A stretch of DNA of 64,000 nt, from NCBI RefSeq assembly GCF_000807675.2, contig NZ_CP019962.1, forward strand, positions 2,294,001-2,358,000, read 5' to 3'. Below, in pieces: positions 10,105-63,755 of this stretch. Source of the stretch: Eubacterium limosum (GTDB taxonomy: Bacteria > Bacillota > Clostridia > Eubacteriales > Eubacteriaceae). Every line of letters starts with the position of its first letter. Position 1 is the stretch's first letter. The position numbers and the translations under genes are program-made. Below the pieces are notes generated by a model. It did not search any database, had not been told where the DNA came from, and worked only from the letters and a program-made list of their open reading frames with translations.

Positions 10105-11235
10105 ATGATTACATTTAATAAACCGCCCTTTATGGGGGATGAGTTCAAATATATTAAGGAGGCAATCGACAATAAGCAGATCAGCGGTGACGGTGCCTTT
10201 ACGGCCAGATGCAAAGCCTGGCTGGAAAAAAGCTGTAATGCGCCGGAGGTACTGCTGACAACCTCCTGTACCCACGCCCTTGAGATGGCAGCACTGCTCT
10301 TGCAGATACAGCCGGGCGACGAGATCATCATGCCTGCCTATACCTTTGTGTCCACCGCCGATGCTTTTGTTCTGCGGGGGGCACGCATTGTTTTTGTGGA
10401 TATCCGGCCGGATACCCTGAATATTGATGAAAAACAGATTGAAGCTGCGATCACCCCAAAAACCCGCGCCATTGTCCCGGTGCATTATGCCGGTGTTTCC
10501 TGCGAGATGGACACCATAAACGGCATCGCAGCTGCCCATGGCCTTAAGGTGGTAGAGGACGCTGCCCAGGGAGTGATGGCCTTTTATAAAGGAAAAGCCC
10601 TCGGCACCCTCGGTGATTTTGGATGCTTCAGCTTTCATGAAACCAAAAACTACAGCATGGGCGAGGGCGGCGCCATTGTGATCAATGATCTGAAATATAA
10701 GGAAGAGGCTGAAATCATCCGGGAAAAGGGGACCAACCGAAGCCGTTTTTTCCGGGGTGAGATCGACAAATACACCTGGGTGAACCACGGTTCATCCTAT
10801 CTTCCGAGCGATATGAACGCCGCCTATCTGTGGGCACAGCTGGAGCACGCGGATGAAATCAACAATGATCGGCTGGCCAGCTGGGATTATTACCATGACG
10901 CGCTCCTGCCCCTTGCCAGGAGAGAGCAGATTGAGCTGCCCTTTATTCCAGAGGAGTGCACGCACAACGCCCACATGTTTTATATCAAAGCCCGGGATCT
11001 TGAGGAGAGAACCGCGCTTATGGCCCATATGAAGGAAGCCGGCGTCCAGGCGATCTTTCATTATATTCCGCTGCACACCGCGCCTGAAGGGCTGAAGGTT
11101 GGCCGTTTCAGCGGCGAGGACCGCTATACGACCAGGGAAAGTGAACGGATTATGCGGCTGCCAATGTATTATGGACTGGCAAGGGAAGACCAGAACCGGG
11201 TGGTCAGTGCCATCGAAGACTTTTATCGGGTGTGA
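10105..11235 (+). CDS. rffA: PLP-dependent sugar aminotransferase, RffA/WecE type
   Basis: The 376-residue DegT/DnrJ/EryC1/StrS aminotransferase starts MITFNKPPFMGDEFKYI and has SGDGAFT, LLTTSCTHALEM, DEIIMPAYTFVSTADAF, VEDAAQGV and the PLP-lysine segment FHETKNYSMGEGG. Length and motifs match RffA/WecE, which makes TDP-4-amino-4,6-dideoxy-galactose for a surface polysaccharide. It heads an operon with a GT2 transferase, SMR pair and GT-C protein, so the aminosugar is probably attached to a lipid carrier. The exact sugar is inferred. GAGG at 10093 precedes ATG 10105. Confidence 0.82.
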   Translation: MITFNKPPFMGDEFKYIKEAIDNKQISGDGAFTARCKAWLEKSCNAPEVLLTTSCTHALEMAALLLQIQPGDEIIMPAYTFVSTADAFVLRGARIVFVDIRPDTLNIDEKQIEAAITPKTRAIVPVHYAGVSCEMDTINGIAAAHGLKVVEDAAQGVMAFYKGKALGTLGDFGCFSFHETKNYSMGEGGAIVINDLKYKEEAEIIREKGTNRSRFFRGEIDKYTWVNHGSSYLPSDMNAAYLWAQLEHADEINNDRLASWDYYHDALLPLARREQIELPFIPEECTHNAHMFYIKARDLEERTALMAHMKEAGVQAIFHYIPLHTAPEGLKVGRFSGEDRYTTRESERIMRLPMYYGLAREDQNRVVSAIEDFYRV

Positions 11236-11255
11236 ACGTGAAGGAGAATGGATCG

Positions 11256-12386
11256 ATGAAGGAGAAAATTGCAATAATCGGAGCCAGCGAGTTTCAGAAT
11301 CCGCTGATTCTGAGGGCAAAGGAAAAGGGCTATGAGACCCACGTCTTTGCCTGGGAGGCAGGGGACATCGGAGAAGAAACAGCTGATGTCTTTCACCCTG
11401 TCAGCATTGTTGATAAGGAAAAGATTCTGGAAATCTGCAGATCGGAGGGGGTTGCGGGGATCTGCTCCATCGGCTCAGACCTGGCGTCCCTGACGGTCAG
11501 CTATGTGGCTGAAGCGCTGGGGCTCCGGGGGAATTCCATGGCATCCGCTGAGCTCAGCACTAATAAATATGCCATGCGCTGCGCCTTTAAGGCTGCGGAT
11601 GATCCGATCCCCGGATTTATGGAGGGGGATGCGGCCACCCGCCCGCAGGATGTGGCGCTTAAGTATCCGCTGATTGTAAAACCCACGGACCGCTCCGGAA
11701 GCCGGGGGGTTACAAAGATTGAAGGCCCGGATGGACTGGAAGGCGCCATTCATAAAGCCCTTGAGGATTCCTTTGAAAAAAAGGTGATGATTGAGGAATT
11801 TGTGGAGGGCAGGGAGTACAGCGTGGAGTGTATCTCCTATGAGGGGATGCATGTTTTTCTTGCGCTGACGGAGAAAAGAACCACTGGCGCGCCTAATTTT
11901 ATCGAAAAGGGCCATTTACAGCCAGCTGAGGTTACACCCGCCCTGCGCAACCAGATCATCACCATTGTCAAGAAAGCTCTGGACACCCTTCAAATAAGAT
12001 TCGGCGCGTCCCATTCAGAAATCATTATCCAGAAAAACGGAGTTATCCGCATTGTGGAGATTGGCGGACGAATGGGAGGAGACTGTATTGGCTCACATCT
12101 GGTGCCATTGTCAACCGGCTATGACTTTGTGGGCATGGTCATTGATATTGCCTGCGGGAAGGTGCCGGATTTTTCAATTATCCACGAGCCCTCCCCGGTC
12201 GAAATCCGTTTTATTTTCGGGCCGGAGGATCTGGCAGGCTACGAGGCTATGAAAGAGGCGGCAGAGGATCGGATCGTGTGTACCTCTCTGCCTGAAAAGC
12301 TGGATGATCATCCGGTTACAGACAGCTCCAGCCGCTACGGCTTTTATATTTTTGAAAAGGAAAGGATGGGGGCGGATGTCGATTAG
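11256..12386 (+). CDS. ATP-grasp ligase of the Arn-like operon
   Basis: The 376-residue protein shows the three-part ATP-grasp fold: an N-terminal domain MKEKIAIIGASEFQNPLILR, the ATP lid YPLIVKPTDRSGSRGVTKI, and the catalytic region EEFVEGREYSVECISY then RIVEIGGRMGGDCIGSHL with metal-binding Glu. It resembles carbamoyl-phosphate synthase-like or PurK-like members that form an acyl-phosphate and then an amide. Next to an aminotransferase, it could acylate the new sugar amine with an amino acid; that is inference. AAGGAG at 11241-11246 supports ATG 11256. It overlaps the next gene by 11 bases. Confidence 0.78.
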   Translation: MKEKIAIIGASEFQNPLILRAKEKGYETHVFAWEAGDIGEETADVFHPVSIVDKEKILEICRSEGVAGICSIGSDLASLTVSYVAEALGLRGNSMASAELSTNKYAMRCAFKAADDPIPGFMEGDAATRPQDVALKYPLIVKPTDRSGSRGVTKIEGPDGLEGAIHKALEDSFEKKVMIEEFVEGREYSVECISYEGMHVFLALTEKRTTGAPNFIEKGHLQPAEVTPALRNQIITIVKKALDTLQIRFGASHSEIIIQKNGVIRIVEIGGRMGGDCIGSHLVPLSTGYDFVGMVIDIACGKVPDFSIIHEPSPVEIRFIFGPEDLAGYEAMKEAAEDRIVCTSLPEKLDDHPVTDSSSRYGFYIFEKERMGADVD

Positions 12387-13341
12387 CGAAAAAATATCCT
12401 TTGTCATTCCCTGCTACCGTTCAGAGGATACCATAGAGGCTGTGGTGCGGGATATTGATGAGACTGTCAGGCAGCGGCCAGGCTACGATTATGAGGTTGT
12501 TCTGGTCAATGACTGCTCGCCGGACAATACCTATGAGGTGTTAATGCGTCTGGCAGACACAAACCCAAGGGTGCGGGTCGTTAACCTGGCTCGGAATTTT
12601 GGGCAGGCGTCAGCCATTATGGCGGGTTATCACTATGTGACCGGCGACCTGGTCATCAATCTGGACGATGACGGCCAGACCGATCCCAGGGAATTTTATA
12701 AGCTGGTGGACCGGGTGCACGAGGGCGACGATGTGGTCTACGCCAAATATCCGGAAAAAAAGCACAGCGCGTTTCGGAATTTTGGCTCCAAGGTCAATGA
12801 TATGATGGCAGATGCGCTGATCGGCAAGCCCAGACATCTGGTTTTTACCAGTTATTTTTGCGCCAGACGCTTTGTCATCGATGAGGTGCTGCGGTATGAT
12901 AAGCCCTTTCCCTATATTGACGGGCTGCTCATGCGTGTTACCAAGCGAGTGAGCGCTGTTGAGATTCCTCACAGGGAGCGCGAGGCTGGGGAGTCCGGCT
13001 ATACCATCAGCAAGCTTTTTTCACTCTGGCTGGATGGCTTCACGGCCTTTTCAGTCAAGCCCCTCCGAATCGCCACGATTTTAGGTTTCTTGATCGCGAT
13101 GGTGGGGTTTGTCTACGGGGTGGTGACCATTATCAGACAGTTTGTAGAACCCAGTGAGGTTACCGGCTGGGCGTCGCTGATGGCAGCCACGGTTTTTCTG
13201 GGCGGTATGATTATGGTGATGCTGGGGCTTGTGGGCGAGTACATCGGCCGTATTTATATCAGCCAGAACAACGCGCCGCAGTATGTGGTGCGGAACACAC
13301 TGAATATTGAGGACGGAAAAAATGGAAAAGATACGCATTAA
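12376..13341 (+). CDS. Polyprenyl-phosphate glycosyltransferase, GT2 family (ArnC/GtrB-like)
   Basis: The 321-residue protein has a GT2 catalytic domain with SFVIPCYRSEDTIEAVV at the start, the nucleotide-sugar signature VLVNDCSPD, LARNFGQASAIMAGY and the metal-binding LDDDGQTDP near residue 95. Two C-terminal membrane helices (about 228-252 and 265-290) anchor it. This layout is that of ArnC, GtrB and dolichyl-phosphate-mannose synthases, which move a sugar from a nucleotide donor onto undecaprenyl phosphate. It starts inside the end of the ATP-grasp gene. The donor would be the aminosugar made upstream. Confidence 0.85.
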   Translation: MSISEKISFVIPCYRSEDTIEAVVRDIDETVRQRPGYDYEVVLVNDCSPDNTYEVLMRLADTNPRVRVVNLARNFGQASAIMAGYHYVTGDLVINLDDDGQTDPREFYKLVDRVHEGDDVVYAKYPEKKHSAFRNFGSKVNDMMADALIGKPRHLVFTSYFCARRFVIDEVLRYDKPFPYIDGLLMRVTKRVSAVEIPHREREAGESGYTISKLFSLWLDGFTAFSVKPLRIATILGFLIAMVGFVYGVVTIIRQFVEPSEVTGWASLMAATVFLGGMIMVMLGLVGEYIGRIYISQNNAPQYVVRNTLNIEDGKNGKDTH

Positions 13342-13669
13342 GGATTTTGTTTTTCTCCACGTCCTCCTGCTGGTTTACTCCTTCTCCTCAGTTTGCTCAA
13401 AGGCGGCCGCGGCTCAGGCGTTTTTATCATTTCAGTTTTTCATTTATTATGGCCTGGTGCTGGTGATATTGGCAGTTTACGCGCTGCTGTGGCAGCAGGT
13501 GCTTAAGCGGATGCCGCTGACGGTGGCCTTTGCGAACAAAGCGGTGGTGATCATCTGGGGCATTGTCTGGGGCATGCTCTTTTTTGGTGAGACGCTTCGG
13601 ATTTCCATGGTAGTCGGGTCTGTTATCATTATCGCGGGCATTTATCTGGTGGTGAGTGACGATGAATAA
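13322..13669 (+). CDS. SMR/EamA-like membrane protein, ArnE-like flippase subunit
   Basis: The 115-residue protein has four hydrophobic helices and the SMR-like signature LTVAFANKAVVIIWGIVWGM, then GSVIIIAGIYLVV. It begins at ATG 13322, overlapping the end of the GT2 gene by 20 bases. Followed immediately by a second protein of identical length and fold, it looks like half of a heterodimer such as ArnE/ArnF, which flips undecaprenyl-phosphate aminosugar across the membrane. The flippase role rests on context. Confidence 0.72.
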   Translation: MEKIRIKDFVFLHVLLLVYSFSSVCSKAAAAQAFLSFQFFIYYGLVLVILAVYALLWQQVLKRMPLTVAFANKAVVIIWGIVWGMLFFGETLRISMVVGSVIIIAGIYLVVSDDE

Positions 13670-14009
13670 TATGCTTTTTTATACAATCCTGTTTCTGGTT
13701 TCTGTGTTTATATCCTCCATTTCCCAGATTATTCTGAAAAAAAGCGCGGAGGTTAAGTACGCGAGTATTATCCGGGAGTATTTAAACCCCATGGTCATTA
13801 CCGCCTACACCATCTTCCTGGCTTCCACCCTGCTGACGACCTTTGCCTATAAAGAAGTTCCGCTTTCGCTGGGGCCGGTCCTTGAGGCGACAGGCTATAT
13901 CTATGTGGCGGTGCTGGGAACACTTATTTTAAAGGAAAAGCTCAGCCGGAGAAAAATCATCGGTAATGTGCTGATTATTGCGGGGATTATGATTTTTGCG
14001 TTGTTTTAA
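13662..14009 (+). CDS. SMR/EamA-like membrane protein, ArnF-like flippase subunit
   Basis: This second 115-residue four-helix protein has SSISQIILKKSAEVKYASII in the first loop and EATGYIYVAVLGTLILKEKL, typical of EamA/SMR transporters. Its ATG (13662) overlaps the end of the first SMR gene by 8 bases. Tandem SMR pairs next to a GT2 and a GT-C protein are characteristic of Arn-type lipid-sugar systems. The two proteins are clearly different in sequence, consistent with a heterodimer rather than a recent duplication. Confidence 0.72.
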   Translation: MNNMLFYTILFLVSVFISSISQIILKKSAEVKYASIIREYLNPMVITAYTIFLASTLLTTFAYKEVPLSLGPVLEATGYIYVAVLGTLILKEKLSRRKIIGNVLIIAGIMIFALF

Positions 14010-14024
14010 GCGAGGAGGTAATGG

Positions 14025-14201
14025 ATGAAAAAAATATTGACGGTATTATTGGTTTTGCTGCTGCTCTACATTGCGCTGCCTTTTTTGTTCAAAACAGGTA
14101 ATTTTGTGCTGAATGGTGCCCTTGTGCTTGCGGCCGCGGCGTTTCTGGCATTCTGGTTCAGCCTGGTATTCGGAAAGGAACAGGATCGGGATGCAGACTA
14201 A
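14025..14201 (+). CDS. Tiny two-helix membrane protein in the Arn-like operon
   Basis: A 58-residue frame begins MKKILTVLLVLLLLYIALPF and has a second hydrophobic helix LVLAAAAFLAFWFSLVFG before a charged tail EQDRDAD. GAGGAGG at 14012-14018 supports ATG 14025 (the ATG at 14021 is too close to it). The stop lies 11 bases inside the next gene, so translation is coupled. It may be a small accessory subunit of the flippase or transferase. No family is recognised. Confidence 0.65.
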   Translation: MKKILTVLLVLLLLYIALPFLFKTGNFVLNGALVLAAAAFLAFWFSLVFGKEQDRDAD

Positions 14202-15549
14202 AGCTTTTTTCAAAACCTATCAGCGGGAAATTTTCTTTGTGTTGTTCTGTTTCTTCTTTTATTTTGCCTGGTCGCAGCTGATTCCTTACAATAATGCGCC
14301 GGATGAGGACATGCGGTACGACATCGCCCATTTTATTTTTAAGAACGGGGTGCTGCCCTTTGGCAATGAACCGGAAATTGTCAATCCCCTCTGGGGACAG
14401 TCTTACGCCTATCAGCCGATTTTTGCCTACCAGATCGCCGCGGTATTTATGCATGCGGGGGCGCTGTTCGGCATGGCTGAGGATCAGCTTTACCTTGCGG
14501 CCCGTTTTGCCAATACGCTCATTGCCACGGGCACAGTGGTGCTGGTGCTGGCCATTGGCAGAAAGTGCTTTAATGGAAAAGGGGTTTACCTTTTCGCGGT
14601 GCTGGTCTGTCTTCTGCCGCAGTTTGTTTTTATTTCTTCTTATGTGAATAATGACACCCTGGCGCTGTTTTCCACAGCGCTGATCTTTTACTCGTGGATA
14701 CTGGGAATGAAACGCCACTGGGATTTAAAAAGCTGTGTGGTGATGGCTGTGGGGCTTTCACTTTGCTTTTTATCCTATTATAATGCCTATGGATTTATCC
14801 TGTGCAGTGTGATTTTGTATGCAGGAGATTACCTGATAAACCGTAAAAAATGGCCGATTAGGAAGTTTTTGGGCCTGGGCCTGATCATTATCGGGATCTG
14901 CGCTGTGCTGGCAGGCTGGTGGTTTGTGAGAAGCGCCCTGCTGCACGACGGCGATTTTTTCGGCATGCGGACAAGCGCCGCGCTGGCAGAACAGCTGGCC
15001 CAGCCAGCTTATAAGCCCTCGCAGCATGTGACGCCCATGAGCTCAGGCTATTCGATTCTGCAGATGCTGTTTACCTCCTATCAAAATATGGATAAGGTAA
15101 GCCCGCCCTGGATTTTTGTGACCTATATCAGCTTTTTGGGGAACTTTGGTTTTATGAGTATTCCCATGTCGAAGATTGCCTATGTTGTCCTGACGGGTAT
15201 TTTTGGTGTGGGGGGCGTTGGTTTTCTCCTTTGGTGGTTTAAAAAAGCGCGAAAAGAAGAGGGCGTCCGCGGCCATTTATGGACAGTTACGCTGATACTG
15301 GCGATTCTGCTGCCCATTGGTTTGAGCATATGGTATTCTTATTCGTCGGATTACCAGCCCCAGGGGCGCTATGTGATCACCGCGCTCATACCGCTCATGT
15401 ATTTTCTGGCAAAGGGCCTGGTATGGGTGGAAAATGCGTTGCAATCAAGAGGTCTTGCCATTCCAGTAACACTTTTGACAATTTTTGCTGAGGTGGTGGT
15501 CGTTTTTTACGCATTCTGCGGCAATCTGGCGGCAGCGGTGCTTTCCTGA
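14191..15549 (+). CDS. Multispanning GT-C-like glycosyltransferase or DUF2142-like protein
   Basis: The 452-residue protein has roughly ten membrane helices. After the first helix an exoplasmic loop holds the acidic motif YNNAPDEDMRYDIAHF, as in GT-C enzymes (PMT/ArnT families, DUF2142), where acidic residues act at the membrane face. Further features are GQSYAYQPIFAYQIAAVFMH and the large loop near residues 265-310. ATG 14191 lies inside the small upstream gene. As last gene of the operon it is the candidate that transfers the lipid-linked sugar to its acceptor, as ArnT does. Acceptor unknown. Confidence 0.7.
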   Translation: MQTKAFFKTYQREIFFVLFCFFFYFAWSQLIPYNNAPDEDMRYDIAHFIFKNGVLPFGNEPEIVNPLWGQSYAYQPIFAYQIAAVFMHAGALFGMAEDQLYLAARFANTLIATGTVVLVLAIGRKCFNGKGVYLFAVLVCLLPQFVFISSYVNNDTLALFSTALIFYSWILGMKRHWDLKSCVVMAVGLSLCFLSYYNAYGFILCSVILYAGDYLINRKKWPIRKFLGLGLIIIGICAVLAGWWFVRSALLHDGDFFGMRTSAALAEQLAQPAYKPSQHVTPMSSGYSILQMLFTSYQNMDKVSPPWIFVTYISFLGNFGFMSIPMSKIAYVVLTGIFGVGGVGFLLWWFKKARKEEGVRGHLWTVTLILAILLPIGLSIWYSYSSDYQPQGRYVITALIPLMYFLAKGLVWVENALQSRGLAIPVTLLTIFAEVVVVFYAFCGNLAAAVLS

Positions 15550-15637
15550 CAAGCGCCGCCGCTTTACAGGTATGATATAATAGTGTCAGGGTGAAACAAA
15601 ATAAGCCCAATGTGATTATAAAATGATGGAGGTAATG

Positions 15638-16204
15638 ATGGAAACTATTCAGATGATTTCAAATCCAACCATGAGCAGTATTTTAAACCGCCGGAGCATC
15701 CGGAAATACAAACAGGAGTCTGTCGGAATGAGCGAGCTGGCAAGCATTATGGAGGCAGCCCTTCAGGCCCCGACCGGGCGGAACGAGCAGTCCTGCGATA
15801 TTATTATGGTCCAGGACAAGGATCTGCTAATGGAAATGAACGCTGGCTTTAAGGCCTATGCCAACGAGCACGGCAGCCGCTATGATCTGTCTGCGGATAA
15901 CTATTCGGTTTATTACCACGCGCCGGCCTTTGCCTTTATTGTGGGCGATACGGCCAATAAATGGCGCTATGTGGACGGCGGCATTGTGGTTGAAAACATG
16001 GCTCTGGCGGCGGAATCTATGGGTGTGGGCACCTGTATCATCGGTATGATCTTAGATTATATGACCAGCGAGGACGGTGCGGACATGATGAAAAAGATCG
16101 GCGCGCCTGAGGGCTACGAGTTTATCATTGGCCTGGCCCTGGGCTATCCGGACGAAGCGCCGGAAGCGAAGCCGAGGGATGGCTCAAAAGTACGTTTTCT
16201 GTAA
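15638..16204 (+). CDS. Nitroreductase family protein
   Basis: The 188-residue protein shows the nitroreductase FMN-binding start SSILNRRSIRKYKQESV, then ALQAPTGRNEQSCDI, and the C-terminal VENMALAAESMGVGTCIIG and FIIGLALGYPDE. Such FMN enzymes use NAD(P)H to reduce nitro groups, quinones or flavins; the substrate cannot be told. GGAGG at 15628-15632 favours ATG 15638. An extended -10 element TGATATAAT lies at 15573-15581, so the gene has its own promoter. A terminator follows at 16226. Confidence 0.85.
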   Translation: METIQMISNPTMSSILNRRSIRKYKQESVGMSELASIMEAALQAPTGRNEQSCDIIMVQDKDLLMEMNAGFKAYANEHGSRYDLSADNYSVYYHAPAFAFIVGDTANKWRYVDGGIVVENMALAAESMGVGTCIIGMILDYMTSEDGADMMKKIGAPEGYEFIIGLALGYPDEAPEAKPRDGSKVRFL

Positions 16205-16225
16205 TCTGGTTTCACATAAAGTATG

Positions 16226-16256
16226 GGACGCTGTTTTCGGACAGTGTCCTTTTTTA
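16226..16256 (+). terminator. Terminator after the nitroreductase gene
   Basis: GGACGCTGT (16226-16234) pairs with ACAGTGTCC (16241-16249, one G-T pair) and is followed by seven T. Confidence 0.8.
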
Positions 16257-16301
16257 TTGGCGCATGGAAATTTTAGCAGCGCCAAGAATGCGGGCTGAGA
16301 C

Positions 16302-16526
16302 TGTCAAAAAAGTGTCGCGGTCCGAGACTGTGCCTTTTATCCAGAAAAGAAAAAAGTCCAGGCGCTGTGGATCACGGACAGGCATCGTGCCGTGCTGCTG
16401 GCACAGCCGGACACTGGCGAGATAAAGCTTCAACTTTAGAGAAGAAGATATTATTGTGAGGGGAATGCCCGCAGGACACTTTTTTCTTTCTTAGGTAAAA
16501 GGCTTCGTCTCTCGTGTTTTTTGACA
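16302..16526 (+). mobile_element. MITE-like dispersed repeat, copy A
   Basis: A 225-bp non-coding element is bounded by perfect 10-bp inverted ends, TGTCAAAAAA and TTTTTTGACA. A diverged copy in the same orientation lies at 22730-22953. Shared inner blocks include CGAGACTG.GCCTTTTATCC, GTCCAGGCGCTG and TTAGGTAAAAGGCTTCGTCT. A 14-bp direct repeat, CAGCGCCAAGAATG, flanks this copy at 16277-16290 and 16532-16545. It fills most of the 413-base gap between the nitroreductase gene and the next gene. No reading frame is present, so it would be non-autonomous. Confidence 0.65.
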
Positions 16527-16617
16527 CTTAACAGCGCCAAGAATGTCGCTTTTTTACAAGTCCCCAGAATCTGAGATGGTATAATAACAGATATAACAAC
16601 GAAAGGAAGGACTTGCG

Positions 16618-17544
16618 ATGCAGAACGCCCTTTATAATGAAATTAAAACATGGATGTACCGAAACGCGCGGCATGTGGAACTGTGCTTGTGGCAGTATTT
16701 TTTTGAGGATGGGGATAAAAAAGCAGTTGCCGACGCGCTGTTATCCTACCAGAATGAGGACGGCGGCTTTGGCCATGTTCTGGAGCCGGACAACTGGAAT
16801 CCAAATTCCACCCCCACGAGCACCGACCACGCCCTGGGGCTTTTGAGACTTGTCGGCTTCGAGGACATGGAGCATCCCGTTTATCAGGGAATCTGGAAAT
16901 ACCTGGAGGCAGGGAAGGATCTGGCAGACTATGGCTGGCGCTTTACAGTGGAAAGCAACGATGACTACCCTCACGCGCCCTGGTGGAATTACAGCGAGGA
17001 AATGAACCGTAAGGAGTATCTCGGCATGACAGCCAGTTTCTCAGCCTTTATCCTGAAATACGGCGATCCGGAGTCCCCGCTTTACCAGAAGGCACTCACA
17101 TTCACCGATATTTTTATGAACATGCTGGCACAGGATATGAGTTACGGAGAAATGGGCCTGAGCGGGTATATGGTGCTCATCGACACCATCATAGAGATCA
17201 GGCTCGGCGGCTATGATTGTGACGCCCTGGTAAAGGCACTGGGCGGGAAAATAAAAAAAGCCATCGGGGAGGATGAAACCGTCTGGGCGCAGTACGGCGT
17301 CCGTCCGTCAAATTACATCAACAGCCCTTCCAGTGTTTTCTATGAAGATAACGCGGAAATGGTGGGCAAAGAGCTGCAGTATCTGCTGGACACCAAGCCC
17401 AAAGATGGTGTCTGGGGGATTACCTGGACCTGGTTCGATAATATGGCGCAGTACGGCGATGCCTTTATCCTCAGTGAAAACTGGTGGAAGGGCAACCGGG
17501 CCATTATGAACACCCTGTTTTTGAGAAACTTTGGAAAGCTGTAA
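16618..17544 (+). CDS. Alpha-alpha toroid protein, prenyltransferase/terpene-cyclase-like fold
   Basis: The 308-residue protein has a repeat typical of alpha/alpha toroids: LLSYQNEDGGFGHVLEPDNW followed by a helix ALGLLRLVGFEDMEHPVYQG. The QxxDGGFG-type repeat occurs in squalene cyclases and prenyltransferase beta subunits, but cyclase signature motifs are absent and the length is short. Similar bacterial proteins are labelled hypothetical. AAGGAAGG precedes ATG 16618 and TATAAT lies at 16580-16585, just after repeat copy A. Function unknown. Confidence 0.65.
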   Translation: MQNALYNEIKTWMYRNARHVELCLWQYFFEDGDKKAVADALLSYQNEDGGFGHVLEPDNWNPNSTPTSTDHALGLLRLVGFEDMEHPVYQGIWKYLEAGKDLADYGWRFTVESNDDYPHAPWWNYSEEMNRKEYLGMTASFSAFILKYGDPESPLYQKALTFTDIFMNMLAQDMSYGEMGLSGYMVLIDTIIEIRLGGYDCDALVKALGGKIKKAIGEDETVWAQYGVRPSNYINSPSSVFYEDNAEMVGKELQYLLDTKPKDGVWGITWTWFDNMAQYGDAFILSENWWKGNRAIMNTLFLRNFGKL

Positions 17545-57972: not shown

Positions 57973-58001
57973 GACCGGCGCAATTTTGCGCCGGTCTTTT
58001 T
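57973..58001 (+). terminator. Terminator of rsgA (recurrent family)
   Basis: GACCGGCGCAA (57973-57983) and TTGCGCCGGTC (57986-57996) form an 11-bp stem with loop TT, then TTTTT. Confidence 0.88.
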
Positions 58002-58060
58002 GTGTTTATAGACAAAAGCTTAACGAAAGATTTAGTGATGATGCGCTGAGGGCAAAAGAC

Positions 58061-58103
58061 TTGCATTCAATGAAATACGTGCTACAATGGAGCTAAGAAA
58101 ATG
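58061..58103 (+). promoter_or_regulatory. Promoter pointing into the 3' end of the hxlR gene
   Basis: TTGCAT (58061-58066) and TACAAT (58083-58088) are 16 bases apart, followed by GGAGC and ATG 58101. The frame it would start runs antisense through hxlR for 70 codons with no recognisable product. It may be the head of a deleted gene or may make antisense RNA. Confidence 0.5.
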
Positions 58104-58137
58104 TTTACATTGGAAGGCCGATACCCCAGGGGCGGCA

Positions 58138-58518
58138 TCAGGGCAGCTGGCTGCAGCTTTTGCAGGAGGGCAGCTCTGCCTCGAGATCCCTGGTGGTATG
58201 GGCCTTGGCCCAGGCGCAGATACTCTGGAGAATGGGCAGGACTGACCTGCCCTTATCGGTCAGGGCGTATTCAACCCTTGGGGGAATCTCATTATACTGG
58301 GTGCGGGCAATGAGGCCGTCGGCGATCAGGTCCTTCAGCATGGAGGCCAGGACCGTATCGGTAATGTTGTTCAGCTCTTTTTTCAGCTGTTTATAACGCA
58401 TGGTATCGTCTGTTGACAGAACGCAGATAATGCGGGCTTTCCACTTGCCGCCAAAGGCATCCAGTCCGTGCTCAATGGGGCACATTCTTTCCTTTTCGAG
58501 TTTGTGCTGGTATTTCAT
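58138..58518 (-). CDS. HxlR family transcriptional regulator
   Basis: The 126-residue protein has the HxlR winged helix with CPIEHGLDAFGGKWKARIICVL (conserved Cys near residue 13), LKKELNNITDTVLASMLKDL and RVEYALTDKGRSVLPIL. The tail carries an extra CKSCS pair. Members sense reactive electrophiles, redox state or ligands. It is divergent from the LarC2/unknown/LarB/LarC1 operon; a palindrome at 58597-58614 lies between, so it probably controls both. GGAGGAG precedes ATG 58518. Confidence 0.88.
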   Translation of the reverse strand: MKYQHKLEKERMCPIEHGLDAFGGKWKARIICVLSTDDTMRYKQLKKELNNITDTVLASMLKDLIADGLIARTQYNEIPPRVEYALTDKGRSVLPILQSICAWAKAHTTRDLEAELPSCKSCSQLP

Positions 58519-58596
58519 AAGCGTCTCCTCCTGTTTGTTAAGGTTATTCTAACACAAATCCAGTCAGCAAAAAGAAGAATTTAAGATTTCCCCATT

Positions 58597-58664
58597 ACTC
58601 ATTAATTTATGAGTGGCTCATAAATTTGTGAACAACTTGTTTTGGAGGCAAATGGTGCTAAAAT
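58597..58664. promoter_or_regulatory. HxlR-type operator and promoter of the nickel-pincer operon
   Basis: ACTCAT-TAATTT-ATGAGT (58597-58614) is a perfect inverted repeat, followed by a related half-site CTCATAAATTTGTGA to about 58631. TTGTTT (58637-58642) and TAAAAT (58659-58664), 16-base spacer with TG upstream, form the plus promoter. Confidence 0.65.
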
Positions 58665-58703
58665 GAATTAAGAGACTGATTACATCATGAAAAGGAGGGA
58701 GCT

Positions 58704-59204
58704 ATGGACTTTCATTCTAAAGACGGGCTTGTTTTTATGGTACAGGCCGACCATCTGAGCGGCGAGTGCGTCGGGCAGGCCATCGACCGTCTCTACACCG
58801 CCGGGGCCGCGAACGTGCAGGTGGTGCCGGCCATCACCAAGAAAAACCGGCCGTCCTATCTGTTTTTTATCGACTGTGCGCCGGATTCGGCGGACAGGGT
58901 GGAGCAGGCCATTGCCGGGGAGCTGACCAGCGGCGGCTGGCACCGCATCGACACCGTGCACCGCTATCAGTACAATGAGAAGCTGAAGCGCCTTGTGGAA
59001 CTCTGTTTTCAGGGAGAGACGCTCCCCTTTACCGTGGAGGGCAAGAAATTTGAAAGCGGCAGTCTGCGGCCCGAGCACGACAGTGTTGTGGCGCTGCGGG
59101 AGGCGGTTTATGAAAAGTGGCATAAGCCCGTGACCTACGAAGCGGCTTATCATATGGCGGTTTCAGCATTGCTGGACAGTGAAAAAAGTGTATTTCAAAT
59201 TTAA
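58704..59204 (+). CDS. Separate LarC C-terminal (LarC2) domain protein
   Basis: The 166-residue protein resembles the C-terminal half of LarC, the nickel-insertase for the nickel-pincer nucleotide: VQADHLSGECVGQAIDRLYT, AGAANVQVVPAITKKNRPSY (compare KKNRPG of LarC), and SLRPEHDSVVALREAV. LarC2 binds the nucleotide and CTP. In most genomes it is joined to LarC1, in one frame or by a frameshift; here LarC1 is 2.7 kb downstream (61889), so the protein is made in two genes. ATG 58704 has AGGAGGG upstream. Confidence 0.68.
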   Translation: MDFHSKDGLVFMVQADHLSGECVGQAIDRLYTAGAANVQVVPAITKKNRPSYLFFIDCAPDSADRVEQAIAGELTSGGWHRIDTVHRYQYNEKLKRLVELCFQGETLPFTVEGKKFESGSLRPEHDSVVALREAVYEKWHKPVTYEAAYHMAVSALLDSEKSVFQI

Positions 59205-59227
59205 AGGAATTTTCAGGAGGTATTATC

Positions 59228-61012
59228 ATGAATGATAACGCAAAATGCAGAGTGATCTCTGCGGTTGAGATGGCTTCGGTATCCAATATTTCAAATCTGA
59301 CCAACGACAGGATCGAGGCCCTGGCCGGCGGTCACGGCATGGTTAACATGGCCATCCATACCGTTGCCAATGTGATTACAGACGAGCTGTTAAAAGGGGA
59401 AAAGCTCTCCATTGAGTTCGCGGACGCCAGGCGGCTGCCCATTGACGACATCATGGAAAAGGCCGTCAAGACCGCCAAGAAATCCGGCGCCGACGGGGCC
59501 AACGCGGCCTTGATCACAGCCTGCATCATGTACCTGGCAGGCTCTGCCGCCCAGGTAGGCATTCCGGCAGGCAACCGGAAGCTGGGGGCCACGGCCCGTA
59601 TGCTGGCCGGTGTGGACCGCAGCGGCGTTGCGGCGATCCCGACCGCCAAGATGAACAATAAAATCTCCGCGTTCCCGGCGGTGCTGGCTATCAACAAGGC
59701 CATGCTGGAGGGAACCCTCTCCACGCTGGACGGGCGCAATGTGCCCATGAACGTTGGCGGCGGCCCGCTCTACGGCCACAGCACCCTGGGCGAGGATTAT
59801 GTCTGGCCTGAGCTGGCGGTCAACGGCGCGCGCATCGGCACCCAGGCCATGCTGGACGCCATGGCAGGGGCGGTGATGGTACCCCATCCCTTCACCGCTG
59901 CAGTGCTGGGCGCAGCGGCGATTCTTGAAATCATCCACCCCGACGCCGAGGTGCCAGAGGGCGAGGGCGTTTACGGGCGCACCAGTTCGGCCTATCTGGT
60001 GGGGAAATCCGCGGTGGCTACCGCAGGACTGCCCGAAGAGGTACATTTCAAGGTAACGGGCGAGGCAGTGGATACTGCCAAACTGGTGGGCGATGTGGGC
60101 CTGATCCTCAAGGACATTGGCGCCCCGTCGGTCATTGGCATGATGGCCTTTGATGAAATCTTTTCCTGCTTCCAGGAGGGCATCGCGGGCTTTTCCGGCG
60201 GCCCGGTCAACGCCCCTCTGGGGCATGTGGGCGCCTACGCGGTCATTGGCATGAAAGCTCTGATCAAGAACAACGGCGACGCGGCCAAAACAGGCCAGGA
60301 AATCGTGGCCGAGCGCAGTGCCTGCTCCTTTGACCCGGAGGTGGCCCAGCTCAGCATTAACACCATCTGCCGCAAGGCCAACGAGCTGTGGCGCGGACCG
60401 GTGACCAATATGCTCATCGACGCCACCGAACCGGCAAGGGCCTGGGCCATCCACCGTCGGGCCGAGTACGCCTGCGAACAGCTTGAAGCCGGCGTGAGCC
60501 TGGAGACCATCGTCTCCAAATTTGATGATGACCGCATCGCCGAGGTCGAAAAGAACGCGGGTGTTCTGCTCTCCGGCATGGTGGGCGAACCGGTGAGCAT
60601 CAAGGTGCGCCGGATTGAGCCTGCTGCCCGCAGAACCTCCAAGCTGGCCCAGAAATACTGGTCCTTTGACCCCTCGGTCGACATCACCGTGACTGTGGGC
60701 GACAACGTGGCCGAAATGGACGGCTTTGTCCATGATATTATCCCCAGGGTTGTGAAAGGGGAATGTCAGGATGTGGCCTGGGCCGTGCCTCTTGGCGCAG
60801 CGGTCATGGATGAGCTGGCCCTGTGCGCCTGCAGTATTCTGAACGTGACCGTGCCCGCGGCTGTGGCGGCTGCCATGAAGAAGCATGACCCTGCAGAGGC
60901 GGCGGATATTGTGGAAAAAGCCGCGCACCTGACCCGGGCCATCCCGGGCGGCAAGTTCGCAGCCCAGAAGGTTGCGGCGCTGGCCCTCAGTATTGTGGAA
61001 TACCAGGCATAG
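59228..61012 (+). CDS. Unknown 594-residue protein in the nickel-pincer operon
   Basis: I do not recognise this protein. It is Ala/Gly-rich, without signal peptide or clear membrane helices, and so probably a soluble enzyme. Potential metal or cofactor ligands lie in motifs such as GGHGMVNMAIH, GGGPLYGHSTLGED, MVPHPFTAAV, PLGHVGAYAVIG, AIHRRAEYACEQ and MDGFVHDIIPR. It is flanked by LarC2-like and LarB/LarC1 genes, and LarA and LarE are absent, so a nickel-pincer-nucleotide enzyme is a fair hypothesis. GGAGG precedes ATG 59228. A short copy of its last ten codons recurs at 62700. Confidence 0.75.
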   Translation: MNDNAKCRVISAVEMASVSNISNLTNDRIEALAGGHGMVNMAIHTVANVITDELLKGEKLSIEFADARRLPIDDIMEKAVKTAKKSGADGANAALITACIMYLAGSAAQVGIPAGNRKLGATARMLAGVDRSGVAAIPTAKMNNKISAFPAVLAINKAMLEGTLSTLDGRNVPMNVGGGPLYGHSTLGEDYVWPELAVNGARIGTQAMLDAMAGAVMVPHPFTAAVLGAAAILEIIHPDAEVPEGEGVYGRTSSAYLVGKSAVATAGLPEEVHFKVTGEAVDTAKLVGDVGLILKDIGAPSVIGMMAFDEIFSCFQEGIAGFSGGPVNAPLGHVGAYAVIGMKALIKNNGDAAKTGQEIVAERSACSFDPEVAQLSINTICRKANELWRGPVTNMLIDATEPARAWAIHRRAEYACEQLEAGVSLETIVSKFDDDRIAEVEKNAGVLLSGMVGEPVSIKVRRIEPAARRTSKLAQKYWSFDPSVDITVTVGDNVAEMDGFVHDIIPRVVKGECQDVAWAVPLGAAVMDELALCACSILNVTVPAAVAAAMKKHDPAEAADIVEKAAHLTRAIPGGKFAAQKVAALALSIVEYQA

Positions 61013-61047
61013 CCTGTAAACAGCATCCCCTCTTCAGCAGTGTGACC

Positions 61048-61081
61048 GCCCGCGAATCCGAGGATTTTGGGATTCGCGGGC
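61048..61081 (+). repeat. GC-rich hairpin without T-run inside the operon
   Basis: GCCCGCGAATCC (61048-61059) and GGATTCGCGGGC (61070-61081) form a perfect 12-bp stem with a 10-base loop, followed by GTTGTCTG. It lies in the 117-base gap between the unknown gene and larB and may protect or process the mRNA. Confidence 0.7.
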
Positions 61082-61129
61082 GTTGTCTGTCTGCGGCGGG
61101 GCGCTTTAAAGGAGAAAGGGTAAAATAAA

Positions 61130-61879
61130 ATGATAAAAAAAGAGATGGAACGCATTTTAACCGCGGTGCGCTCCGGCGCCATGGACGTCGGGGACGCCCT
61201 GGAGCAGATGCAGGAAATGCCCTACAAAGATCTGGAATACGCCAAGGTGGATTATCACAGAGAGCTGAGAAACGGCTTTCCCGAGGTTATCTACAGCCCC
61301 GGGAAAAGCCTTGAGCAGATCCAGGGCATTGTGGCAGATATGCTGGAGCGCACAAAAGGCAATATCCTGGCCTCCCGGGCCGATGAGCAGGTCTATGCGG
61401 CCATCCGGGAGCTGACCGAAGACGCCGTCTATTACAAGGACGCCCGGTCGGTGGTGGTCAAACGCCAGGAATACCCGGTATCAGAGGACTATATCGCAGT
61501 GGTGACCGCAGGCACCTCGGACATCCCGGTGGCTGAGGAGGCGGCTGTGACCGCCATGGTCATGGGCAACGCGGTGCGGCGGCTGTACGATGTGGGCGTG
61601 GCCGGAATCCACCGGCTTTTAGACAACGTGGAGGTCATCAACCGGGCCCGGGTCATCATTGTGGTGGCGGGCATGGAGGGCGCACTGGCCTCAGTGGTCG
61701 GCGGTCTCACGGACAAGCCAGTGATCGCTGTGCCCACCAGCATCGGCTATGGGGCCAACTTTGGCGGCATCTCCGCCCTGCTGGGCATGCTGACCTCCTG
61801 CGCCAGCGGCATCGGCGTGGTCAACATCGACAACGGCTTTGGGGCGGCCTGTATGGCCTCGAAAATCAACCAGCTTTAG
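61130..61879 (+). CDS. larB: Nickel-pincer nucleotide biosynthesis protein LarB
   Basis: The 249-residue protein matches LarB, a PurE-like carboxylase/hydrolase acting on nicotinic acid adenine dinucleotide: an N-terminal helical part with RELRNGFPEVIYSPGKSLEQ, then VVTAGTSDIPVAEEAAVTAM, LDNVEVINRARVIIVVAGME and GGLTDKPVIAVPTSIGYGAN. It makes the pyridinium dicarboxylate precursor of the cofactor. GGAGAAAGGG precedes ATG 61130. larC1 follows by 9 bases. Confidence 0.9.
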   Translation: MIKKEMERILTAVRSGAMDVGDALEQMQEMPYKDLEYAKVDYHRELRNGFPEVIYSPGKSLEQIQGIVADMLERTKGNILASRADEQVYAAIRELTEDAVYYKDARSVVVKRQEYPVSEDYIAVVTAGTSDIPVAEEAAVTAMVMGNAVRRLYDVGVAGIHRLLDNVEVINRARVIIVVAGMEGALASVVGGLTDKPVIAVPTSIGYGANFGGISALLGMLTSCASGIGVVNIDNGFGAACMASKINQL

Positions 61880-61888
61880 GAGGCATTC

Positions 61889-62617
61889 ATGAAAATCGTG
61901 TATTTTGACTGCTTTGCGGGCATCAGCGGCGATATGACCCTCGGGGCCTTTCTGGACTGCGGTGTGAGTCCGGAGATCCTGCGGCAGGAGCTTGAAAAGC
62001 TTGGTCTGCCCGGCTTTCACCTTGAGATTGAAAAGACAAAAAAGCGGGGGATCACCGGCACCAGCTGCCAGGTAGCCGCCGACCGGGAGGAGCACTGCCA
62101 TCGCCATTTTGCAGAGATTCAGGAGATGATTGAAAGCAGCAGCCTGGACGCGCCGGTCAAGGCCACAGCCCTGTCCATGTTTGGCCGGGTGGCAAAGGCC
62201 GAGGGAAAGGTACACGGCGTACCGCCCGAAAAGGTCCATTTCCATGAGGTGGGGGCAGTGGATTCCATTGTGGACATTGTGGGCGCGGCCATCTGCGCCC
62301 ACGCGGTGGCAGCGGATAAAATCCTGGCCTCTGCGGTGAACACAGGCCAGGGCTTTGTGGAATGCGCCCACGGCGTCCTGCCAGTGCCGGCGCCGGCCAC
62401 CGCCGAGATTCTGGCGGGAACAGACTTTAAGGTTTACGCCCGATGTGCCGGGGGCGAGGCCGTAACACCGACCGGCGCGGCCATTCTGGCAGAGCTGGCC
62501 AGCCCCGCAGATGGTTTTCCCGCCATGCGTATCCACCGGGTGGGCTATGGCTTTGGCGAGCGTGAGTTTGAAGTGCTTAACGCCCTGCGCGTCTTTATCG
62601 GTGAGGACGACGCTTGA
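61889..62617 (+). CDS. larC1: LarC N-terminal domain (LarC1)
   Basis: The 242-residue protein begins MKIVYFDCFAGISGDMTLGA, the LarC start, and has CHRHFAEIQEMIE, VHFHEVGAVDSIVDIVGAAI, VPVPAPATAEILAG and ends RVGYGFGEREFEVLNALRVF then a stop, where LarC2 would normally continue. Downstream bases do not encode LarC2 in any frame that I can see; the C-terminal half is the separate gene at 58704. LarC inserts nickel into the pincer nucleotide. GGAGG precedes ATG 61889. Confidence 0.82.
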   Translation: MKIVYFDCFAGISGDMTLGAFLDCGVSPEILRQELEKLGLPGFHLEIEKTKKRGITGTSCQVAADREEHCHRHFAEIQEMIESSSLDAPVKATALSMFGRVAKAEGKVHGVPPEKVHFHEVGAVDSIVDIVGAAICAHAVAADKILASAVNTGQGFVECAHGVLPVPAPATAEILAGTDFKVYARCAGGEAVTPTGAAILAELASPADGFPAMRIHRVGYGFGEREFEVLNALRVFIGEDDA

Positions 62618-62652
62618 TCGCTTCGCGTCTGAACCGTCCAGTAACGATCTTC

Positions 62653-62683
62653 AAAAACCTGACAGACATTGTCAGGTTTTTTT
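62653..62683 (+). terminator. Terminator of the nickel-pincer operon
   Basis: AAAAACCTGACA (62653-62664) and TGTCAGGTTTTT (62670-62681) form a 12-bp stem with loop GACAT. An identical hairpin is at 63842-63872. Confidence 0.85.
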
Positions 62684-62699
62684 GACATGTGGGTGAGCT

Positions 62700-62729
62700 G
62701 CTCTCAGTATTGTGGAATATCAGGCATAG
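62700..62729 (+). pseudogene. Duplicated 3' tail of the 594-residue gene
   Basis: Thirty bases encode ALSIVEYQA plus stop with only two silent differences from the last ten codons of the gene ending at 61012. The match breaks down just upstream. It lies after the operon terminator in the 319-base gap before 62937, whose remainder shows a CAGGGCA-CAA-TGCCCTG hairpin (about 62802-62818) and a promoter, TTGCAG (62885-62890) and TATACT (62908-62913). Confidence 0.55.
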
Positions 62730-62936
62730 CAGGCCGAGACGGCAGCCCCGGCAGACCGCGGGCCTCTGTGGAAAGTAAAAGAATCTTTCGCTTAAAGGCA
62801 GGGCACAATGCCCTGTCGTGCCGCCAGAATGGAACCAATGGTGCAGTCACTGCAGAGTGCGAAGACTCAAAGGCTAAGTCTCCGTTGCAGAATTAAGAAA
62901 ATCCTGTTATACTAAAGAAAAAGAGGGGGGAACCGC

Positions 62937-63755
62937 ATGGAAGAGGAATACAGCGCGCTGCCGATCACCAATGATTTTATGTTCACAAGGGTTATGCAGG
63001 ATCCGGAGATATGCAAGGGATTTTTGCAGGAGGTGTTGCCCGACATCCGTATCCGGGATCTGCACTATCTGGAGCCCCAGAAAACACTGGAGGGCAATGT
63101 GGACGCTCACGGCGTGCGCCTGGACGTGTATGTGGAGGACAATGACAAAGTCTACGACATTGAGATGCAGACCGTACCTCAGGGTGATCTTGGCCGCCGG
63201 GCGCGGTACTATCAGGGCCATGTCGATATGGACCTGTTAAAGAAGGGAGAGAAATACGATGAGCTCAGGGACAGCTACATCATCTTTATCTGCACCTTCG
63301 ACCCCTTCGGATTTGAAGAGTATGTCTACACCTTCGAGAACCAGTGTGACGAAGTCAAAGACCTGAAGCTTGAGGACGGCACCTGGAAGCTGTTCCTGAA
63401 CACCAAAGGCAGAAAGGGCCGAAACCGTCCAAACCTGAAGATTGTACTGGACTATTTTGACAACAAGCCCGTAAAGGAACCCACCGAGCTGGTAAAAAAA
63501 ATGGAAACCGCGGTAGAAATAGCGAATAAAGACAAGGGATGGAGGCGAGAAGTCATGAATTTGGAAATGAAACTATACGACCGGGAGAGAATTGGTATGC
63601 AAAAAGGCATACAAAAAGGCATGCAAAAAGGCGAGAAAAAAAAGGCCCGGGAAGTGGCTGTAAATCTGCTGAAACAAAACCTGCCGGTCAACCTTATCGC
63701 CAATGCCACTGGCTTGAGCGAAACGGAAATCGAAGAGCTGAAGCAAGAACTTTAA
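62937..63755 (+). CDS. Rpn family PD-(D/E)XK nuclease/putative transposase
   Basis: The 272-residue protein matches Rpn/PDDEXK_2 proteins: LPITNDFMFTRVMQDPEICK at the start, nuclease core RLDVYVEDNDKVYDIEMQ (Asp ... Glu-x-Gln) and GDLGRRARYYQGHVDMDLL. Such proteins are DNA endonucleases that promote recA-independent recombination. The C-terminal region has a run of MQKG/IQKG repeats, coded by 12-base DNA repeats (63595-63635), a site prone to length change. GAGGGGGG precedes ATG 62937. Confidence 0.85.
   Translation: MEEEYSALPITNDFMFTRVMQDPEICKGFLQEVLPDIRIRDLHYLEPQKTLEGNVDAHGVRLDVYVEDNDKVYDIEMQTVPQGDLGRRARYYQGHVDMDLLKKGEKYDELRDSYIIFICTFDPFGFEEYVYTFENQCDEVKDLKLEDGTWKLFLNTKGRKGRNRPNLKIVLDYFDNKPVKEPTELVKKMETAVEIANKDKGWRREVMNLEMKLYDRERIGMQKGIQKGMQKGEKKKAREVAVNLLKQNLPVNLIANATGLSETEIEELKQEL

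Follow-up and report, generated by a model that had tools for sequence, protein, structure and literature searches.

Genes at the locus and the pincer genes elsewhere in the genome

We analysed a window of 64,000 nucleotides, positions 2294001-2358000 of the 4.42-Mb single-contig genome of Eubacterium limosum, and within it an operon that sets genes for the nickel-pincer nucleotide (NPN) cofactor around a protein of 594 residues, here called X594. LarB, LarE and LarC make NPN, and the only users of this cofactor that we know of are relatives of LarA; among the matches listed, the NPN literature deals, by title and abstract, only with LarA-family enzymes or NPN synthesis. The operon runs on the plus strand from a stand-alone LarC2-like protein (LarC2s) through X594 and LarB to LarC1, with gaps of 23 (LarC2s-X594), 117 (X594-LarB) and 9 bases (LarB-LarC1), and an HxlR gene diverges from it on the minus strand. 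A sequence-only reading of this DNA had proposed this arrangement, and the open reading frames lie as it described, with the neighbours of X594 over curated cut-offs:

58138..58518, minus strand: HxlR-family regulator (PF01638, 93.1 bits, cut-off 20.8)
58599..58631, no strand given: inverted repeat in the gap between the HxlR and LarC2s genes, candidate HxlR operator (arms of 15 nucleotides, 87% complementary, 3 nucleotides apart)
58704..59204, plus strand: LarC2s, 166 amino acids (NF052512, 53.1 bits, cut-off 50)
59228..61012, plus strand: X594, 594 amino acids, candidate nickel-pincer cofactor enzyme (undescribed family, 33 related loci)
61047..61082, plus strand: hairpin between X594 and larB (inside a 120-nucleotide fold, -50.9 kcal/mol, z -3.8; no T-run)
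61130..61879, plus strand: LarB, 249 amino acids, a further copy in the genome (NF033503, 296 bits, cut-off 175)
61889..62617, plus strand: LarC1, 242 amino acids, nickel-insertion domain without a following LarC2 half (TIGR00299, 220 bits, cut-off 90)
62653..62681, plus strand: intrinsic-terminator-like hairpin with a T-run (fold -14.9 kcal/mol, z -3.66)

Judged by its sequence, X594 is a genuine gene, because it is preceded by a ribosome-binding-like sequence and because 184 of the 223 base changes that separate it from the copy of a congener (L003) fall on third codon positions. In a profile search of L058, LarC2 matched at the start of the operon and nowhere further along.

LarA and LarE are absent from the window, as the sequence-only reading had noted, and both lie elsewhere in the genome: LarA at C1:1806745, and LarE at C1:352998 inside a larE-larB-larC operon with a full 384-residue LarC. 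Since these genes are present elsewhere, NPN is very probably made in this organism regardless of the window operon, which thus amounts to a further larB together with a LarC1 that lacks its LarC2 half. The LarB of the window operon is 81.5% identical to that of the larE-larB-larC operon. The LarB profile gives three matches at E<=1e-30 in this genome, one LarB beyond the two discussed here.

X594 belongs to a rare family without known relatives

The 594-residue protein had been described as unassignable, and it has stayed so: X594 found no match over the cut-off in Pfam (best E 0.068) and none at all in NCBIfam, its profile found no relative among the PDB sequences, and its predicted model gave no convincing match to solved structures. 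When 26 aligned members were compared with Pfam at E<=1, the matches were weak and scattered over the 15 families listed (best E 0.026), among which the LarA domains Lar_N and LarA_C do not figure. Among the matches listed in the literature, no article deals with X594, judged by title and the start of the abstract, most subscription journals lying outside that search.

One scan of 84,980 species genomes returned 33 loci with X594 relatives from 32 assemblies (L025 and L026 share one), which form 22 clusters at 90% identity. They fall in Bacillota (Eubacterium, Sporomusa, Anaerosphaera, Lachnospiraceae) and Pseudomonadota (Rhizobium, Mesorhizobium, Sinorhizobium, Paracoccus, Afipia, a Hyphomicrobiaceae bin and a Burkholderiales bin), joined by one contig each from a Balneolaceae bin, with an X594 79% identical to that of the window, and from a Nitrospirales bin; both contigs may be contaminants. 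The nearest named relative, from E. callanderi, is 98% identical; three distant members from the window's phylum (L065, L067 and L068) share 37-42% identity, and X594 also occurs on five plasmid records. The family is scarce, being present in 7 of 101 near relatives, in 4 of 398 genomes sampled from the window's phylum and in 1 of 327 genomes sampled from Hyphomicrobiales, the order of Sinorhizobium, where the one carrier is the chosen centre of the sample. In the family tree the Bacillota and Pseudomonadota groups separate with strong support, and L065, L067 and L068 stand apart as well, the joins of long branches being unsure. At two loci a pair of frames that overlap encodes X594, with the break near residue 330 in L038 (8001-9786, and at the same place in genome G005) and near residue 120 in L039 (6819-8602), which may be a natural two-part gene or a sequence error.

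X594 travels with LarC2s and the pincer genes

We counted linkage across the 33 loci with profile hidden Markov models built for this analysis. In 30 loci LarC2s is at most 8 kb away from X594, and in 29 at most 1.5 kb (partial in L022 and L035, on the other strand in L039), and in the three loci without it (L019, L036, L041) the contigs stop in or just past X594. LarC1 is found within 5 kb of X594 in 23 loci, LarB in 19 and LarE in 15, and at least one of the three lies within 6 kb in 24; five of the nine remaining loci are cut short on at least one side. Counted by cluster (n=22), the linkage holds for LarC2s in 19, LarC1 in 12, LarB in 8 and LarE in 4. The larB/larC neighbourhood on which the earlier proposal leaned is conserved in related genomes across Bacillota and Pseudomonadota, and lar linkage is found in every deep branch of the X594 tree.

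The most compact arrangement occurs in some alphaproteobacteria, where X594, LarC2s, LarC, LarE, LarB and a nickel transporter follow one another consecutively. The annotated order in Rhizobium sp. CCGE532 reads X594 (as a hypothetical protein), LarC2s, LarC, an adenine nucleotide alpha hydrolase that is matched by the LarE profile, LarB and a HoxN/NixA nickel transporter. Such compact alphaproteobacterial loci show no other candidate cofactor user between X594 and the nickel transporter. The distant locus L068 has the order X594-LarC2s-LarB-LarE-LarC. In L018 (9825-11564), L039 (3814-6683) and L017 (3618-7777) the surroundings of X594 include genes for LarA, for proteins of the altronate-dehydratase type (GD_AH) or for both, as in hydroxy-acid catabolic clusters.

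LarC2s is probably a separate, X594-linked paralogue

The first gene of the operon had been read as a LarC2 domain, and it does exceed the cut-off of the LarC2 profile; it retains the conserved acidic residues of LarC2 together with its KK-x-R segment, and it has extra segments. To call it a LarC half that has come apart would be too simple. In a tree of 13 of the 30 LarC2s proteins of the 33-locus set together with six others, the split between the 19 stand-alone proteins and 11 fused LarC2 domains has 100/100 support; the branches there are long and drew a warning from the tree program. LarC2s adjoins X594 even at loci with a complete LarC (rhizobia, L067, L068). This co-presence and the separation in the tree led us to reject a mere split-off half. 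Given its presence next to complete LarC, the best reading of LarC2s, on these sequence comparisons, is a separate, X594-linked paralogue. Its role would be to deliver the cofactor or to complete it; LarC inserts nickel in a reaction that depends on cytidine triphosphate (CTP), according to an excerpt of PMC11796402. Among PDB sequences, LarC2s of the window matches 3c19 best (E 3.5e-4), over residues 8-74 only and with a shared KKNRP segment. We take this entry to be MK0293, an uncharacterised protein of Methanopyrus.

Half of the X594 assemblies match LarB and LarE but not LarA

Across the 32 assemblies with X594, LarB was found over the cut-off in 29 and LarE in 29, and a Lar_N match, which marks the LarA family, in only 13, with none in 19. 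Both LarB and LarE without LarA are matched in 16, including all 14 alphaproteobacterial ones, and one further X594 genome (G514) has the same combination. Five of six further X594 genomes have a Lar_N match over the cut-off. Within the Hyphomicrobiales sample LarB is present in 23 of 327 genomes.

An excerpt of PMC11796402 states that about 15% of surveyed genomes carry larB, larE and larC without larA, and suggests NPN-binding proteins other than LarA. X594 fits this gap for its own hosts, and it is far too rare to fill all of it, since so few of the sampled genomes carry X594.

The larE gene is interrupted in part of the Rhizobium tropici group, namely in R. lusitanum, R. leucaenae, R. freirei, R. 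tropici CIAT 899 and CCGE531, and is whole in CCGE532. The interrupted copies lie at these positions:

L028, 4872-5642: interrupted larE
L029, 5258-6028: interrupted larE
L030, 5029-5799: interrupted larE
L033, 11613-12383: interrupted larE
L050, 12613-13383: interrupted larE
L053, 12553-13323: interrupted larE

Because the larE frame has an in-frame stop, part of this group may have lost the pathway.

Three of the 32 assemblies (G104, G106, G111) had neither LarB nor LarE over the cut-off in the whole-assembly search. Since X594 persists in genomes without LarB and LarE, either import of a cofactor precursor or independence from canonical NPN comes into question there. At L012 (11153-12161), L013 (11243-12243) and L014 (11100-12070), a TM1506 (DUF1893) gene and the S-component of an energy-coupling factor (ECF) transporter directly follow LarC1; the gene content of Anaerosphaera, with this S-component and without LarB and LarE, suggests uptake of a cofactor precursor. 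Alternatively, X594 of Anaerosphaera may need LarC-type handling only, or no canonical NPN. Directly upstream of X594 in Anaerosphaera (L012 3478-7573, L014 3277-7365) lie selenium/sulfur-transfer-like genes, for a rhodanese domain protein, an AIR-synthase-related protein (maybe SelD-like), TusA and a class V aminotransferase.

Predicted structure and invariant residues of X594

The predicted X594 model is mostly helical and of good overall confidence (predicted local distance difference test 85.7, predicted template modelling score 0.88), with weak stretches at residues 31-34, 64-69, 112-115 and 132-144 that include very conserved loops. Low confidence at conserved loops might fit a cofactor or partner that is missing from the model. 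In 28 full-length rows of the alignment 76 columns are invariant, and 62 of them lie in residues 1-333; the invariant residues, many of them charged, include N116-R117-K118, K141, K145, H184, E189-D190, K295-D296, E310 and H333, and K576 is likewise an invariant lysine. The sequence-only reading had pointed to Gly/His-rich motifs in X594, and these are present, with only H184 and H333 remaining as invariant histidines once distant relatives are added. LarA depends on a lysine that forms the covalent link, on a histidine that sits on the nickel and on an aspartate at the ribose, as excerpts of PMC12611868 describe, which also give NPN a mass of about 449 Da; X594 has invariant residues of these kinds, a correspondence that is only permissive of NPN binding.

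Hydropathy averages 0.21 over the whole protein, and the best 19-residue windows reach up to 1.98, where the usual mark for membrane windows of this length is 1.6. Most of the top, weak rows of a Foldseek search with the full model are membrane transporters. We consider X594 unlikely to be a membrane protein.

Catabolic neighbours offer a substrate lead

In rhizobia, Sporomusa, a Lachnospiraceae bin and UBA6113, the strand that encodes X594 also carries genes for a PatB-type C-S lyase and a RidA-like protein. The PatB proteins exceed the TIGR04350 cut-off with 428 (L032), 406 (L011), 398 (L039) and 369 bits (L013); for the RidA-like protein of L032 the score is 46 bits, which does not reach the NCBIfam cut-off of 106. 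Transporters near X594 in these lineages are an amino-acid transporter of the ATP-binding cassette type, an amino-acid permease and a Na/alanine symporter, and in L039 a Na/H-antiporter-type carrier. PatB lies within 8 kb of X594 in 9 of the 33 loci and 5 of the 22 clusters, once on the opposite strand (L036), and a RidA-like gene lies within the same distance in 9 loci and 4 clusters; six loci of the 12-locus rhizobial cluster extend far enough upstream, and PatB is found in five and RidA in six of them. Cleavage of the C-S bond of an S-substituted cysteine would give 2-aminoacrylate, a substrate of RidA. Mimosoid legumes, which many of the rhizobial hosts nodulate, hold S-substituted cysteines, a point that our literature search did not confirm; among the matches listed, the literature on S-substituted cysteines of host plants makes no mention of djenkolic acid.

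This lead is weakened by the loci that lack PatB despite about 7 kb or more of upstream or downstream sequence, namely the window itself, L009, L010, L012, L014, L015, L018, L020, L021, L022, L023, L038 and L040. The X594 loci of Paracoccus and the Hyphomicrobiaceae bin, like the window and most of the other loci in Bacillota, have neither PatB nor RidA. Elsewhere the one-carbon genes FTHFS, FolD and FTCD lie near X594, and in L065 (genome G509, 11161-16892) X594 stands beside genes for a GHMP kinase, a flavoprotein, a DUF6513/pterin-binding protein and an ATP-grasp protein, a set that we take to resemble tetrahydromethanopterin-type genes. We weakly infer that the substrate in the four lineages is an amino acid or a derivative of one, possibly an S-substituted cysteine.

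Regulation of the operon

The proposal that the divergent HxlR regulator controls the operon finds partial support. An HxlR gene lies within 3 kb of X594 in 8 of the 33 loci, and the divergent gap of the congener L003 holds a perfect 11-nucleotide version of the window's inverted repeat at 871-893; the link is moderate, and control would act through the putative operator. The terminator-like hairpin at 62653-62681 likely marks the end of the operon and does not appear in the list of a consensus terminator scan. The hairpin at 61047-61082 is a possible site of mRNA processing or another expression step, and it may set the ratio of the X594 and LarB products. An Rfam search for RNA elements gave no match in 58000-63000 of the window.

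X594 as a candidate NPN enzyme outside the LarA family

We hold it to be probable, with considerable room for doubt, that X594 is an NPN-using enzyme outside the LarA family and that LarC2s is its partner, a reading drawn from gene linkage, family conservation, the lack of known relatives and the missing LarA match in many X594 assemblies. In X594 hosts, LarB, LarE and LarC would make NPN, and LarC2s, a dedicated partner, would probably help to finish the cofactor or deliver it to X594, which would hold it through an invariant lysine and histidine and carry out a reversible hydride transfer, as LarA does. In the four lineages with catabolic neighbours, X594 may work in a pathway with the PatB-type C-S lyase and RidA on an amino acid or an amino-acid product. 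Our wider view, held more in doubt than in confidence, is that X594 represents a second, structurally unrelated class of NPN enzymes with its own LarC2-like delivery subunit, acting at least partly in the breakdown of amino acids (perhaps S-substituted cysteines) in anaerobic Bacillota and root-nodule bacteria, and explaining part of the genomes that have NPN without LarA.

Several observations weigh against an NPN enzyme. LarA is also present in 13 of the 32 assemblies and lies within 8 kb of X594 in 3 of the 33 loci. The 16 assemblies that match LarB and LarE without LarA include many near relatives and several metagenome-assembled genomes, the completeness of the 32 is unstated, and four of the 16 (two strains of R. 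lusitanum, R. leucaenae and R. freirei) have an in-frame stop in LarE. A Lar_N match is present in 17 of the other 22 sampled Hyphomicrobiales genomes with LarB and missing from 5, so a missing LarA is not peculiar to X594 genomes. As many as 221 of 398 genomes from the window's phylum have LarB, so co-occurrence there is weak evidence, leaving the case to linkage and to the alphaproteobacteria. Twelve of the 33 loci form one cluster at 90% identity, and L011, L020, L038 and L039, with at least 6.8 kb on both sides, carry LarC2s, with LarB, LarC1 and LarE all missing from the nearest 6 kb. Anaerosphaera aminiphila and A. multitolerans keep X594-LarC2s-LarC1 with no LarB or LarE over the cut-off and no LarA match, and the Balneolaceae bin has X594 with LarC1 and no LarB or LarE over the cut-off. 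In the structure, the highly conserved loops 112-115 and 132-144 are among the least confident, and no cofactor site is modelled.

The sequence-only reading had left X594 as a user, a carrier or a chaperone of the cofactor. A user is probably a better reading than a helper of LarA, because 16 X594 assemblies with LarB and LarE have no LarA match. The strongest alternative, which we regard as unlikely, makes X594 and LarC2s a cofactor-handling pair for carriage, storage, trafficking or late pincer modification, with the true user elsewhere. The constant pairing of X594 with a LarC2-like protein would suit such a pair, as would the LarA genes that share assemblies and sometimes loci with X594; however, half of the assemblies match LarB and LarE and offer no LarA match to serve, the neighbours in four lineages are catabolic genes, and in our judgement a large protein with 76 invariant columns is more than one expects of a carrier.

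Rather less likely again is that X594 uses a different nickel or pyridinium cofactor, either imported or a variant pincer made by the operon's own LarB, LarC1 and LarC2s. The further LarB and LarC1 in the window genome, the separation of LarC2s from fused LarC2 and the Anaerosphaera loci, which keep X594-LarC2s-LarC1 followed by the TM1506 protein and the ECF S-component, point that way, but the two LarB copies probably make the same product because of their identity, and LarB and LarE are each matched in most of the X594 assemblies. That X594 is an ordinary metabolic enzyme or membrane protein without a pincer cofactor, the lar genes being linked only through a shared pathway or as fellow travellers, seems very improbable to us, for although one-carbon or amino-acid genes stand near X594 in several loci and nine loci (five of them cut short) have no LarB, LarC1 or LarE nearby, LarC2s is missing only where contigs end, and the compact alphaproteobacterial loci show no alternative cofactor user before the nickel transporter.

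As a candidate NPN protein outside the LarA family, X594 is concrete and cloneable, with many natural operons in cultivated rhizobia and Eubacterium, and the same pairing with lar genes recurs in root-nodule and soil bacteria without any LarA-family match. Should the assignment hold, pincer chemistry would have arisen a second time in another protein scaffold and would probably act on substrates of a new class.

Comparison with known systems

Besides PDB 3c19 and the subunits of methyl-coenzyme M reductase, the nickel enzyme that uses F430, two known systems are nearest to this operon. LarC2s resembles the LarC2 half of LarC (NF052512; PDB 6bwo and its kin) in its profile score and in the acidic and KK-x-R residues, and differs from it in standing alone, in its extra segments, in its place in the tree and in co-occurring with full LarC. 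X594 resembles the LarA superfamily (PF09861 Lar_N / PF21113 LarA_C) in having larB, larC and larE as neighbours and in its likely dependence on NPN. Unlike that superfamily, it gives no sequence match to it (hhalign against three LarA proteins, probability 0.2%), and with 594 residues in a mostly helical predicted fold it differs from LarA, of about 425 residues, in size and architecture.

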